DNA of 64,000 nt, taken from NCBI RefSeq assembly GCF_012910805.1, contig NZ_WTVK01000015.1, positions 1 to 64,000 on the forward strand, given 5' to 3'. Below the pieces are notes generated by a model. The model was not told the DNA's origin, searched no databases, and was given only the letters and a program-made list of their open reading frames with translations. The stretch comes from Aromatoleum evansii. Its GTDB lineage: Bacteria; Pseudomonadota; Gammaproteobacteria; Burkholderiales; Rhodocyclaceae. The translations under genes and the position numbers were made by a program. Shown one piece after another: positions 51,057 through 58,948 of this stretch (the stretch's first letter is position 1; every line of letters starts with the position of its first letter).

Positions 51057-51896
51057 GTGCAGCGCCAGATTCCCAACGTCGTCAGCATCGCCGGGGTCGA
51101 CCCCAGCGGCGGGGCCGGCGTGTTCGCCGACATCAAGACCTTTTCCGCACTCGGCGCCTACGGCTGCGGCGTCGTCGCCGCGCTCACCGCGCAGAACACG
51201 CAGGCGGTCACCGGCGTGCACACGCCGCCGACCGACTTCCTGCGCCTGCAGATCGACACCCTGTTCGCGGATGTCGCGATCCACGCGGTCAAGCTCGGCA
51301 TGTTGGGCAGTGCCGAGATCGTCGCGACGGTCGCGGACCGCCTCGCACACTTCGACGCGCCCTTCGTCGTGTGCGACCCGGTGATGGTCGCGAAGAGCGG
51401 CGACCATCTGCTCGCACGCAACGCGGTGGCGATGCTGATCGAAGCCCTGCTGCCGCGCAGCTTCATGATCACGCCGAACCTTCCGGAAGCCGGCGTGCTG
51501 CTGGAGCAGCGCCCGCCCGAGACGGTGAAGGAGATGTACCGCGCCGCCGAGCGCCTGCGCGAGATGCTGCCGCTCTCGTCCGAGCGCTGGGTGCTGCTCA
51601 AGGGCGGTCACCTCCCCGGCAGCGATGTCGTGGACCTCTTGTTCGACGGCGACCGCATGATCGAACTGCCCGCGCCGCGCATAGAGACGAAGAACACGCA
51701 CGGCACCGGCTGCACGCTGTCGTCGGCGATCGCCGCCCTGCTGCCGCAGCGCGCCGGCGGCTTCCGTCCGGTCGAAGCGGCTGTGCGGGATGCGCGCGAT
51801 TACCTGCTGCGCGCGATCGCCGCTTCCGGCGCGCTGTCAGTCGGCAAGGGGCACGGTCCCGTGCACCACTTCCACCGCTGGTGGCCGTCCGCCTGA
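51057..51896 (+). CDS. thiD: Hydroxymethylpyrimidine/phosphomethylpyrimidine kinase
   Basis: This encodes 279 residues from a GTG at 51057 with GAGG upstream. The ribokinase-like fold is recognised from SIAGVDPSGGAGVFADIKTF, ALTAQNTQAVTGV, DPVMVAKSGDHLL and the catalytic KNTHGTGCTLSSAIAA with the general-base Asp equivalent in GTGC. It phosphorylates HMP to HMP-PP for thiamine synthesis. It is divergent from the dehydrogenase operon and no thiE is fused to it. Confidence 0.95.
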   Translation: MQRQIPNVVSIAGVDPSGGAGVFADIKTFSALGAYGCGVVAALTAQNTQAVTGVHTPPTDFLRLQIDTLFADVAIHAVKLGMLGSAEIVATVADRLAHFDAPFVVCDPVMVAKSGDHLLARNAVAMLIEALLPRSFMITPNLPEAGVLLEQRPPETVKEMYRAAERLREMLPLSSERWVLLKGGHLPGSDVVDLLFDGDRMIELPAPRIETKNTHGTGCTLSSAIAALLPQRAGGFRPVEAAVRDARDYLLRAIAASGALSVGKGHGPVHHFHRWWPSA

Positions 51897-51965: not shown

Positions 51966-53306
<1,341 letters not shown>

Positions 53307-53320
53307 GGAGATCGCCCTTC

Positions 53321-53379
53321 CGTTCAGATTGAACGTTCGCAATGAACGTCCAGTGTGGATCGATGAACGCATTTGAACA
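53321..53379. promoter_or_regulatory. GAACG repeats, candidate activator sites for norS
   Basis: CGTTCA-GAT-TGAACG (53321-53335) is a perfect inverted repeat. TGAAC repeats follow at 53343, 53364 and 53374. They lie 50-105 bp upstream of the norS sigma-54 promoter and just upstream of the divergent activator gene, a usual place for activator sites. Confidence 0.6.
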
Positions 53380-53426
53380 TCCACGCCGCGACGGAAAAAT
53401 GATTGGCATCAAGCGGTTGGCGAACG

Positions 53427-53441
53427 TGGCACGGCACTGGC
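53427..53441 (+). promoter_or_regulatory. Sigma-54 promoter of norSY-senC-orf1
   Basis: TGGCACGGCACTGGC matches TGGCACG-N4-TTGC with correct GG/GC spacing and one mismatch. It lies 62 bp upstream of the norS GTG. Confidence 0.8.
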
Positions 53442-53503
53442 TATGTGCAGTTCAGGGGGACACCCATGTCCCGACCACGAACACATGGACAGGAGAACCC
53501 ATC

Positions 53504-54034
53504 GTGCAACCCATTGCCTGGCAACTATCACTCGTCTTGATGACGCTCGTGGCGTTCGGCTTCGCCTTTGTCGCCATCAATTCCGGCCGGCGACAGGACG
53601 ACTATGCGCCGCTGCAGAAACGCGCCTACCGCCTGCGCACCCGTCTCTTCTGGGGGCTCGTGCTGGTGTTCGGACCGGCCATGATCTACACGCTCACGGA
53701 TCTGCCCTATGGCGCCGCGCGTGCCCGGACCGGCTCGGGCCCCTTGCAGGTCATCGACGCCACCGGCTACCAGTGGCGCTGGGAACTGAGCCAGGACCAC
53801 GTCACCGCCGGCCGGCCGGTCGAATTCCGCGTCACCAGCGCGGACGTCAACCACGGCTTCGGCATCTACGACGCGAACCTGCATCTGGTCGCGCAGACAC
53901 AGGGGATGCCCGGCTACACCAACACGCTGCGCCACACCTTCGAGGAACCGGGGACGTACCGGATCCTGTGCATGGAGTACTGCGGCGTCGCACACCACAA
54001 CATGATGACCGAAATCCGCGTCGACGCTCGGTAA
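53504..54034 (+). CDS. norS: Alternative nitric oxide reductase, CuA subunit (cytochrome oxidase subunit II-like)
   Basis: This encodes 176 residues from a GTG at 53504 (AGGAG 8 nt upstream). Two membrane helices (LSLVLMTLVAFGFAFVAI and LFWGLVLVFGPAMIYTL) are followed by a cupredoxin domain with a complete CuA site: His117, Cys156, Glu158, Cys160, His164 and Met167 (CMEYCGVAHHNM). It takes electrons from cytochrome c for the catalytic subunit encoded next. The gene order norS-norY-senC-orf1 matches the sNOR cluster known in ammonia oxidisers. A B-type oxidase subunit II is the alternative reading. Confidence 0.82.
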   Translation: MQPIAWQLSLVLMTLVAFGFAFVAINSGRRQDDYAPLQKRAYRLRTRLFWGLVLVFGPAMIYTLTDLPYGAARARTGSGPLQVIDATGYQWRWELSQDHVTAGRPVEFRVTSADVNHGFGIYDANLHLVAQTQGMPGYTNTLRHTFEEPGTYRILCMEYCGVAHHNMMTEIRVDAR

Positions 54035-54048
54035 GGGAGGACTCGAAC

Positions 54049-55536
54049 ATGGCGACCTACGCATACGAACACCGCCCCGACCACGGGGCGAAGGCCGGCG
54101 TGCTGGCCTATCTGGCGACCTCGGCGGCGGTGTTGCTGCTGATGATGGTCTTCGGCCTGCTGATGCGCCTCGAGCAGGCGCAATGGATCTCGATCGGCGC
54201 CGACCGCTTCTACCAGCTGATGACGCTGCACGGCGCCGGCATGGTCGGCATCGCGGCGATCGCGGGCGCGTCGGTGATGTGGCACTTCCTGCGCCAGTAC
54301 GTCGACCTGTCGTCGCGCATCTTCATCGCGAACCTCGTACTGTTTCTCGCCGGCGTCGTGATGATTCTCGCGAGCGTGCTGCTCGGCCGCTTCCACGGCG
54401 CATGGACCTTCCTGTTCCCGCTTCCCGGCAAGTCGATGGGCATGTGGAGCGCGGACGCGGCGGCGCTCTTCATGGGCGGGCTGCTCGTGATCGGCGTCGG
54501 CTTCCTGCTGCTGCACCTCGACGTCGCCCGCGCGATCGTCGCGCGCTACGGCAACTTCGCGCGCGCGCTCGGCTGGCCGCAGCTCTTCGGCCACGACGAC
54601 GGCAAGGCACCGCCGCCGACGGTGGTCGCGAGCGCGATGGTCACCATCGTCAACGTCATCGGCCTGGTCGTCGGCGCGAGCATCCTGACGATGATGCTGG
54701 TGAATCTCTACGTGCCCGGCTTCGACATCGACCCGCTGCTCGCCAAGGGGATGATCTACTTCTTCGGCCACGTCTTCATCAACGCGACGATCTACATGGC
54801 GGTGATCGCGGTGTACGAGATCCTGCCGCGCTACACGCAGCGGCCGTGGAAGTCGAACAAGGTGTTCCTCGCCTCGTGGACCGCGTCGACGCTGATGGTG
54901 CTGTTCATCTTCCCGCATCACCTGCTGATGGACTTCGCGTTCCCGAAGTGGATGCTGATCATGGGCCACATCATCGGCTACCTGAACACCGTGCCCATTC
55001 TCGTCGTCACCGGCTATGGCGCGCTGATGATCGTCTATCGCTCCGGCATCCGCTGGGACATGGCGTCGAAGCTGCTGTTCCTGTCGTTGTTCGGCTGGGC
55101 GGCGGGCGCGATGCCGGCCTTCATCGACGGCACGATCACCGTCAATTACGTGATGCACAACACGCTGTGGGTGCCCGGGCACTTCCACACCTACCTGCTG
55201 CTGGGCATGGTGACGATGGTGTTCGGCTTCATGTACTACCTCGGCAAGCCGGACCACGAGACCGACGACCGCCCGATCGACCGCATCGCGTTCTGGCTGT
55301 TCACGTCGTCGGTGCTCGGCTTCACGCTGAGCTTCCTGTATTCCGGCAAGGAAAGCGTCGCGCGTCGCTACGCCGCCCACCTGCCCGAATGGGTGCCGTA
55401 CGACCGCATCGCGTCGGTGTTCGCGGTGCTGGTGATCGCCTCGGCGCTGCTGTTCGTCGGTCGCTTCTTCGCCCGCATCGGCCTGGCGCGTCACGACTAC
55501 CAGCGTGCGCCGCTCGCGCGCGCCGCGACCGCGTGA
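54049..55536 (+). CDS. norY: Alternative nitric oxide reductase, heme-copper catalytic subunit
   Basis: This encodes 495 residues and about twelve helices, starting 8 nt after AAGGGAGG. All six metal-ligand histidines are present: His61, His241, His290, His291, His378 and His380 (GHVFINATIY; FPHHLLMDF; VPGHFHTYLLLG). The residue four after His241 is Asn245, whereas aa3 and ba3 oxidases carry the Tyr that is cross-linked to CuB. So O2 reduction by the normal route is unlikely and NO reduction is a good alternative. This fits the sNOR group. No Glu of cNOR type is at that site either. Substrate remains to be proven. Confidence 0.82.
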   Translation: MATYAYEHRPDHGAKAGVLAYLATSAAVLLLMMVFGLLMRLEQAQWISIGADRFYQLMTLHGAGMVGIAAIAGASVMWHFLRQYVDLSSRIFIANLVLFLAGVVMILASVLLGRFHGAWTFLFPLPGKSMGMWSADAAALFMGGLLVIGVGFLLLHLDVARAIVARYGNFARALGWPQLFGHDDGKAPPPTVVASAMVTIVNVIGLVVGASILTMMLVNLYVPGFDIDPLLAKGMIYFFGHVFINATIYMAVIAVYEILPRYTQRPWKSNKVFLASWTASTLMVLFIFPHHLLMDFAFPKWMLIMGHIIGYLNTVPILVVTGYGALMIVYRSGIRWDMASKLLFLSLFGWAAGAMPAFIDGTITVNYVMHNTLWVPGHFHTYLLLGMVTMVFGFMYYLGKPDHETDDRPIDRIAFWLFTSSVLGFTLSFLYSGKESVARRYAAHLPEWVPYDRIASVFAVLVIASALLFVGRFFARIGLARHDYQRAPLARAATA

Positions 55537-55546
55537 GCTGCAAACA

Positions 55547-56161
55547 ATGAAAGCGGTCGCGCGCAGCGTCACCGTCACGGCCCTGGTGACCGTCCTCGGC
55601 ACCGGCGCCTTCTGGTGCGGCACCGACGGTTTCAAGGCCTTCACCGCCGAGACCGCACGCCGGGCCGACATCCTGCGCACGCCGCGCCCCTTGCCCGCGG
55701 CCATCCTCGAAGACCAGGACGGCCGCGTCTTCCGCCTCGACGACTACCGCGGACGGCTGCTCGCGGTGGAATTCATCTATACCCGCTGCACGACAATCTG
55801 CAATAGCCTTGGCGCGGCGTTCAAGCAGATCCGCGACCGCGTGCCGGCCGACGCGCTCGGGCGCGACGTCGCGCTGCTGAGCATCAGTTTCGATCCCGGG
55901 CACGACGATCCTGCGAACCTGAAGGCCTACGGGACCCGCCACGGCGCCGACGGCGAGCACTGGCGGATCGTGCGCGTGCGCGACGCAGATCAGCTGCAGG
56001 CGCTGCTCGGCGCCTTCGGCATCGTCGTGATTGCCGACCGCTTCGGCGGATTCGAACACAACGCCGCGATCCACCTCGTCGGCCGCGACGGCCGGCTCGC
56101 GGAGATCGCCGACCTCGATGCCCCGCTGCGCTTCGCCGACAGACTCAGGGAGGCGCTGTGA
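55547..56161 (+). CDS. senC: SCO1/SenC family copper-delivery protein
   Basis: This encodes 204 residues from the ATG at 55547, 10 bp after norY. One N-terminal membrane anchor (TVTALVTVLGTGAFW) is followed by the thioredoxin-like fold with the copper-binding C-x3-C (YTRCTTICNSLG) and a later His (HNAAIHLVG). It would supply copper to the CuA site of NorS. Its place in the operon is as expected for the norSY-senC arrangement. Confidence 0.92.
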   Translation: MKAVARSVTVTALVTVLGTGAFWCGTDGFKAFTAETARRADILRTPRPLPAAILEDQDGRVFRLDDYRGRLLAVEFIYTRCTTICNSLGAAFKQIRDRVPADALGRDVALLSISFDPGHDDPANLKAYGTRHGADGEHWRIVRVRDADQLQALLGAFGIVVIADRFGGFEHNAAIHLVGRDGRLAEIADLDAPLRFADRLREAL

Positions 56162-56808
56162 TCAACGCCGCCACGCGCGCCGGCATCGGCCTGCGCATCC
56201 TCGTCGCGCTGTACCTGCTGCTGGCGACGCCGGCAGCGCGCACATGGCTCGAAGCGACGATGAGCGGCCACATGCTCGTGCAGATCCCGCTGCTCGCGGC
56301 CCTCGGCTTTATCGCCTGCCGCCTGTTGCCGGAGGCCTGGCAGGAAACGCTGCTCGCCGCCGCGGGCGGCCCGGTCCCGCACGTCGTCGTCGCGCTGTTC
56401 GCATCGACCTGGTGGATGCTGCCGCGGGCGCTCGACGAGGCGCTCACGCACTTGCCGGCCGAAGCGGCCAAATTCGTCAGCCTGCCCCTGCTCGTCGGGC
56501 TGCCGCTCGCGCTCGCATGGCGCCGGCTCGGTTCGATCGGCCGCGGCTTCCTCTGGACCAACTTCATCAGCATGCTCGCCGTGCTCGGCTGGCTCTATAT
56601 CGCCGCGCCGGTACGGGTGTGCAACAGCTATCTGGTCGACCAGCAGGAGAGCGCCGGCTGGCTGATGGTGAAGCTCGCCGTGCTGCTGTTCGCAGGATGG
56701 CTCGCCTCGCTGTTCGTCGGCGGCCACGCGGAGTGCGGCGCCTCCGACATTACCGGCGCGAAAGCCGCAGGCACGCTAGGGCGCGCCTCTCCGCAGAATT
56801 CCACGTAA
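56158..56808 (+). CDS. norSY-senC-associated membrane protein (orf1)
   Basis: This encodes 216 residues from a GTG at 56158 that overlaps the senC stop (GTGA). Five to six hydrophobic helices are visible (LRILVALYLLLA; LVQIPLLAALGFIACRLL; ISMLAVLGWLYIA; VKLAVLLFAGWLASLFV). No catalytic motif is recognised. It corresponds in position and type to orf1 of the norSY-senC-orf1 clusters, where it is thought to help assembly or activity. It may be a small cytochrome-oxidase-associated membrane protein; function is unknown. Confidence 0.85.
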   Translation: MINAATRAGIGLRILVALYLLLATPAARTWLEATMSGHMLVQIPLLAALGFIACRLLPEAWQETLLAAAGGPVPHVVVALFASTWWMLPRALDEALTHLPAEAAKFVSLPLLVGLPLALAWRRLGSIGRGFLWTNFISMLAVLGWLYIAAPVRVCNSYLVDQQESAGWLMVKLAVLLFAGWLASLFVGGHAECGASDITGAKAAGTLGRASPQNST

Positions 56809-56879
56809 TAGAATGTTTCGTTCCGATTTTTGGTGATTTACATGCGCCAAAGTTTGGCGTAACGTGTCGCAACTTACCT

Positions 56880-58948
<2,069 letters not shown>

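Follow-up and report, generated by a model that had tools for sequence, protein, structure and literature searches.

The window analyzed here is a whole stretch of 64,000 nucleotides from Aromatoleum evansii (RefSeq assembly GCF_012910805.1, contig NZ_WTVK01000015.1, positions 1 to 64,000, forward strand). It carries a norS-norY-senC-orf1 operon, a member of the known, and still disputed, sNOR family of proposed nitric oxide reductases (NORs), next to a divergent gene for a sigma-54 activator with a cysteine-rich PAS domain, hereafter the regulator. The observation is real and conserved. We put at roughly two in three the probability that this module responds to nitric oxide (NO) or another nitrogen oxide, the regulator playing a NorR-like role through a different sensor domain and driving the sNOR operon. 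Neither the regulator nor its sites appear to have been described: among the matches listed from the open-license literature, none describes such a regulator and none pairs norSY or sNOR with sigma-54. The first-pass annotation had suspected that the link to this type of regulator might not be known, and the suspicion has grown stronger, with the link recurring in several families, bringing its own enhancer motif, and extending to canonical cNOR clusters.

The published discussion leaves it undecided whether the substrate of sNOR is NO or O2, at least in PMC6967387. An activator that stands beside sNOR or canonical NO reductase genes, with a defined promoter, permits a direct test in cultivable Aromatoleum; if our reading is true, it would represent a second kind of NO-linked sigma-54 activator besides NorR, with relevance for nitrous oxide formation by denitrifiers. 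The features, in window positions, are as follows.

51966..53306, minus strand: sigma-54 enhancer-binding protein (the regulator), 446 amino acids; Pfam; divergent from norS
53321..53335, no strand assigned: candidate activator site 1, CGTTCAGATTGAACG; lies 106 bp ahead of the -24 box
53334..53348, no strand assigned: candidate activator site 2, CGTTCGCAATGAACG; lies 93 bp ahead of the -24 box and shares 2 bases with site 1
53427..53442, plus strand: sigma-54 -24/-12 promoter box for norSY, TGGCACGGCACTGGCT
53504..54034, plus strand: norS, CuA-type subunit II; GTG start; Pfam COX2
54049..55536, plus strand: norY, heme-copper catalytic subunit, 495 amino acids; Pfam COX1
55547..56161, plus strand: senC, SCO1/SenC-family protein; Pfam SCO1-SenC; CxxxC in the sequence
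56158..56808, plus strand: orf1 of the sNOR cluster, membrane protein by inspection; no Pfam or NCBIfam family

As read from its sequence, NorS contains CxExCGxxHxxM, which we take to be the CuA ligand motif. The gene order had been recognized as that of the sNOR cluster of ammonia oxidizers, for which it is tabulated in PMC4940428, and the named Nitrosospira multiformis loci do show the same order. The earlier start of the cluster had to be moved: position 53307 immediately follows the regulator's ATG, and norS begins near 53504.

Linkage of the regulator to sNOR and cNOR operons

The regulator was found in 22 genomes, beside sNOR genes in 19 and beside cNOR genes in 3, and a NOR operon adjoins it in 22/22. 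Thresholds for the regulator were E ≤ 1e-135 in the genus, family, and order samples and E ≤ 1e-115 in the class sample. Per-genome counts come only from genome searches, since loci fetched via NorY cannot show a regulator without norY; some of the searches scored top candidates only (in the order sample, 3 norY and 4 regulator candidates per genome). Of the 17 genomes in the genus Aromatoleum, 13 contain both norY and the regulator and 4 contain neither, with 738 to 743 bp between the nearest ends of the two genes in all 13. In the family sample (150 genomes), 11 genomes have norY; 9 of these, and no others, have the regulator, in each case near norSY. The two norY genomes without a regulator (G055 and G022) have NorY proteins that are only 50 to 53% identical. 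Among 399 genomes of the order sample, the regulator is present in 4 (our own and three others) and norY, at E ≤ 1e-100, in 9, only our own having both. The class sample (369 genomes) has the regulator in our own genome and in G881, where it lies beside norSY. A search of plasmids for the regulator gave no match at E ≤ 1e-100. Genome G048 has two sNOR clusters, L022 and L024, and the regulator, promoter, and sites occur at L022 only.

Two exact CGTTC-N5-GAACG palindromes lie upstream of the norS -24/-12 box, bearing out the original call of a sigma-54 promoter with GAACG-type activator sites ahead of norS. This box is the only one of 11 in the window with such a site, and a Markov-1 control gave 3 box-plus-site cases in 6.4 Mb, both strands. 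With a box score of ≥9 of 10.5 and a site with ≤1 mismatch located 70 to 115 bp upstream, box and site precede norS in 28/28 loci that combine the regulator with sNOR (11 from Aromatoleum and 17 from outside). By contrast, among 25 sNOR loci whose fetched stretch lacks the regulator, only 1 has box and site, and there not at norS (Fisher test for box and site at norS: 28/28 versus 0/25, p 1e-15; 17/17 versus 0/25, p 4e-12; related loci are not independent). Five of these 25 loci hold a distant activator (39 to 41% identical) at a locus end, and another locus in this group, L024, comes from a genome with the regulator at a different place (L022). The count leaves out near-duplicates (L018, L020, L021, L023, L068, L069, L071-L075, and L120, which repeats L058), L061, whose contig begins inside norY, and short loci repeating fetched places; L132, from G881, stands outside the 28 and has a site 103 bp upstream of its box.

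The consensus of 30 sites is CGTTCAnnnTGAACG. Two sites stand 89 to 94 and 103 to 107 bp from the box in 18 of the 28 loci, and the remaining loci have sites at 76 to 78 and 101 to 102 bp, at 81 and 93 bp, or a single site. In loci with a gap of about 0.5 to 1.2 kb between the regulator and norS, the promoter remains close to the regulator. In 21 of 24 loci, between 9 and 66 bp separate the end of the sites from the start of the regulator gene (L043, L062, and L117 have none there at 1 mismatch); because the sites lie just ahead of its own start codon, autocontrol of the regulator is probable.

Three regulator genomes have no norY match (E ≤ 1e-100); in these the regulator has changed partners and lies beside matches to norC, norB, and norD. 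These cNOR contexts also include norQ and norE, confirmed with Pfam for L116 and recognized by inspection for L117 and L118. The L117 NorB protein matches the solved cNOR 3o0r (E 1.3e-228). On the regulator tree, the cNOR-linked L116 and L117 join the sNOR-linked Thiobacillus locus L060 at 98/98. Box and site are present in two of the three regulator-plus-cNOR loci; in the third, L117, they appear only at 2 mismatches, with two such sites 104 and 79 bp from the box. The pairing of the regulator with cNOR ties sNOR to NO, contrary to the oxidase suggestion made in PMC6967387. For a membrane protein beside the regulator in L116 and L117, the name NnrS was considered and dropped, as neither Pfam nor NCBIfam gave a match.

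On a NorY tree of 36 rows, the presence of the regulator (18/36) needs 4 changes, versus an average of about 12 in shuffles. A starred set of 28 rows comprises all 18 regulator carriers and 10 rows without the regulator; the ammonia-oxidizer rows fall in this set together with the window NorY. Five regulator-less rows (Nitrosospira, Nitrosovibrio, and L119) nest inside it, and a fair reading, on a root that was chosen and not inferred, is that the regulator was lost in the Nitrosospira/Nitrosovibrio lineage; Nitrosomonas europaea is not in the set by name. Distances of NorY and the regulator are congruent (r 0.90 over 16 shared loci, with 0/5,000 permutations as high), as would be expected if the linkage reflected only the vertical inheritance of neighbors while the regulator controlled something else; the correlation is weak evidence by itself, because any co-inherited pair would show the same. 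We regard this explanation as very improbable: box and site stand upstream of norS even in L022, L043, and L062, where the regulator lies 3.4 to 5.7 kb downstream, beyond orf1; none of the 25 loci lacking the regulator in the stretch fetched shows them at norS; and the regulator also accompanies cNOR.

Putative sensor domain of the regulator

Pfam assigns to the regulator PAS_4/PAS_8 at about residues 1 to 120, Sigma54_activat, and a Fis helix-turn-helix (HTH) domain, with no GAF among the 19 families listed in the scan. The PAS domain contains Cys50-x8-Cys59-x3-Cys63-x5-Cys69, all four cysteines being invariant in 25/25 aligned orthologues. Scan and alignment together uphold the earlier description of a divergent activator with a cysteine-rich PAS domain in place of the NorR-type GAF. 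The cysteine pattern is absent from the other sigma-54 activator in the window and from 10 of the 11 loci that passed a filter, out of 23 other places in the same genome; the eleventh, L096, yielded no row, and L097 and L128 represent a single place. The loop of the AAA+ domain is GSFSGA in Aromatoleum, and the remaining rows have GAFSGA or GAFTGA. Against the NCBIfam NorR model, the regulator scores 336 bits, with a cut-off of 476; no place in the window's genome lies above this cut-off, and 1 of 14 control genomes has one.

Like NorR, the regulator is a sigma-54 enhancer-binding protein with AAA+ and HTH domains, encoded next to a NOR operon with several enhancer sites (PMC4601167). Unlike NorR, in which a GAF domain holds mononuclear iron, it has a four-cysteine PAS domain, enhancers of the form CGTTCAnnnTGAACG, and GSFSGA in place of GAFTGA. 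NorR enhancers follow the consensus GT-N7-AC, whereas the sites of the regulator read GT-N9-AC or GT-N8-AC. The N-terminal PAS domain of the oxygen sensor kinase NreB likewise has four cysteines, at a spacing that differs from that of the regulator. In NreB they hold a [4Fe-4S] cluster (PMC4601167); NreB is, however, a histidine kinase, and the iron-sulfur (Fe-S) site of the regulator is putative. The sigma-54 activators VnfA and AnfA share conserved N-terminal cysteines and a possible Fe-S cluster (PMC9542535) but differ in having a GAF domain and in their association with nitrogenase genes. Thus, a cysteine-held cluster has precedents in NreB (PMC4601167) and VnfA (PMC9542535), and a sigma-54-activated NO reductase has one in NorR.

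A profile of the PAS domain gave weak matches in the PDB to the heme PAS protein DosP (E 5e-5 for the whole chain, with no single stretch passing) and to the sensor kinase 9wex (E 1.8e-4, residues 6 to 46 only, ahead of the cysteines). A single-sequence alignment that runs through the cysteine region has an E value of 0.025. These matches are too weak to name a cofactor, and that use of them was rejected.

In the mechanism that we favor, the sNOR operon would be transcribed from the sigma-54 promoter, and would encode a heme-copper NO reductase that takes up electrons through a CuA subunit, together with a protein for copper insertion and an accessory membrane protein. The PAS-AAA+-Fis protein would bind the palindromes about 90 to 106 bp upstream of the promoter. 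Its PAS domain is predicted to restrain the AAA+ domain until a signal arrives, whereupon the site-bound oligomer would open the sigma-54 polymerase at norS. The likeliest signal would be NO, or the nitrosative or anoxic state accompanying it, perceived at a putative metal or Fe-S site held by the four invariant PAS cysteines. We go one step further only tentatively, giving a little less than an even chance to the proposal that such proteins form a new class of NO-responsive sigma-54 activators, with an Fe-S or other metal center on Cys-x8-Cys-x3-Cys-x5-Cys of the PAS domain, acting at CGTTCAnnnTGAACG, serving sNOR or cNOR depending on the bacterial group, and absent from the sampled Nitrosospira and Nitrosovibrio with sNOR.

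NorY active site and competing readings

Alignment of NorY confirmed the two active-site features called from the sequence in the first-pass annotation. All six metal histidines are kept (H61, H241, H290, H291, H378, and H380), and Asn245 occupies the column of the cross-link tyrosine, where the genome's own aa3 oxidase has Tyr, cbb3 has Gly, and cNOR has Glu. Asn245 is conserved in 34/34 readable rows of 35 NorY rows (L033 is masked there), as well as in Ruegeria and Thermomicrobium. The possibility of a Tyr supplied from another helix was also checked: NorY has no helix VII Tyr, and the column in which the genome's own cbb3 has Tyr holds Val (V284), or Thr in L066. The alignment and tree used 35 of the 58 extracted rows, omitting near-duplicates, partial rows, L052, and L059; L067, whose norY is split between frames, was kept out. 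The phylogenetic check proposed earlier gave a partial answer. On a tree of 45 rows, a branch (86/95) sets NorY and Ruegeria apart from aa3, cbb3, and cNOR. The deep placement is unsure, since several branches have great length and the tree contains neither a ba3 oxidase nor a bNOR row.

According to PMC3475470, NORs replace the cross-link Tyr with Glu, Gln, Asp, or Asn, and the purified qCuANOR of Bacillus azotoformans has Asn. By description, this bNOR/qCuANOR resembles sNOR in combining a CuA subunit with a heme-copper subunit, in having Asn for Tyr, and in its senC-type neighbor (PMC3475470). It is biochemically characterized, whereas sNOR, in the account of NORs given in PMC11388526, is a separate, proposed enzyme outside the characterized ones. 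Near two other sNOR clusters are heme-copper subunits with Gln at the cross-link Tyr column (L040, 2347-3678, minus strand; L058, 1791-3245, minus strand), which are perhaps further NOR types.

Several points pull away from an NO-responsive module. Where the enzyme is concerned, the best solved relatives of NorY in a profile search are ba3-type (B-family) oxidases, a kinship in line with what PMC11388526 says of sNOR. The sNOR of N. europaea is treated in PMC6967387 as possibly a high-affinity oxidase, on the grounds of B-type oxidase kinship, increased transcription under O2 limitation, and the absence of the NorB glutamates; the same source cites indirect evidence for NO reduction in Nitrococcus. 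NorSY might, then, be a B-family high-affinity O2 reductase and the regulator an oxygen or redox sensor inducing it at low O2, to which the weak match of the PAS domain to 9wex would lend something. We consider this clearly unlikely, given that Asn245 replaces the Tyr and the helix VII Tyr is absent, that in the three regulator genomes lacking a norY match its neighbor is cNOR, an NO reductase, that Rrf2-family genes lie near some sNOR clusters lacking the regulator (annotated in L124, 2891-3373; by BLAST in L064, 10641-11039, and L121, 4559-4948), and that the window's genome already has cbb3 and aa3 oxidases.

Where the signal is concerned, the weak match to DosP makes another cofactor possible, and the PAS cysteines might bind zinc or form a redox disulfide, their 8/3/5 spacing suiting zinc as well as Fe-S. 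The enzyme may thus be an NO reductase whose regulator senses nitrite, nitrate, or, through zinc or disulfide cysteines, the general redox state rather than NO itself. In many loci the gene after orf1 matches a formate/nitrite transporter, and at L022 a second box with a site adjoins the regulator on the strand of such a match. However, the common element of the examined contexts is NO reductase, and the window has no transporter match, a thiamine pyrophosphate (TPP) riboswitch and thiC following orf1 there. We consider this version unlikely, though less so than the oxidase.

Where the linkage is concerned, the regulator is not essential to the enzyme, because 25 sNOR loci have no regulator in the fetched stretch. 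Even a close sNOR can do without it, because two of the eight other norY genomes in the order sample have NorY 72 to 77% identical and no regulator match. The palindrome alone was rejected as a genome-wide signal, its 10 places equaling the 10 of the reversed pattern. The genome's own cNOR cluster (L003 and L127) shows no box with a site, and control of this cluster by the regulator was rejected on that ground; a CRP/FNR-type gene (Pfam) follows its norD.

Neighboring genes and related loci

The sNOR cluster is flanked on the left by a thiD-like phosphomethylpyrimidine kinase gene (51057-51896, Pfam) and on the right by the TPP riboswitch (56870-56979, plus strand; Rfam RF00059, 59.4 bits), followed by thiC (Pfam). 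The nearest named loci are those of Aromatoleum toluvorans and A. toluclasticum, with NorY 98% identical. Among cultivable strains, A. tolulyticum ATCC 51758 and A. toluclasticum ATCC 700605 have the module, at L029 and L032. Compared with the N. multiformis sNOR (L045-L047), identity is 63 to 64% for NorS, 80% for NorY, 65.5 to 66.5% for SenC, and 69 to 70% for Orf1, and ammonia-oxidizer sNORs have the same active-site residues as the window NorY in the rows examined. Unlike the window, the nine named Nitrosospira/Nitrosovibrio loci have neither the regulator next to norSY nor box and site, and in every one of them orf1 is followed by a match to a formate/nitrite transporter.

Such transporter matches are frequent after orf1 (L035-L038, L042-L050, L054, L055, L119, L124, and others); the Pfam check covers L040 only. 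Small open reading frames occur between the regulator and norS in several loci; those in L034-L038, L040, L025, and L053-L055 have apparent signal peptides, by inspection, and one in L040 has a CxxCH heme motif. In L033, an apparent CRP/FNR-type gene lies ahead of norS.

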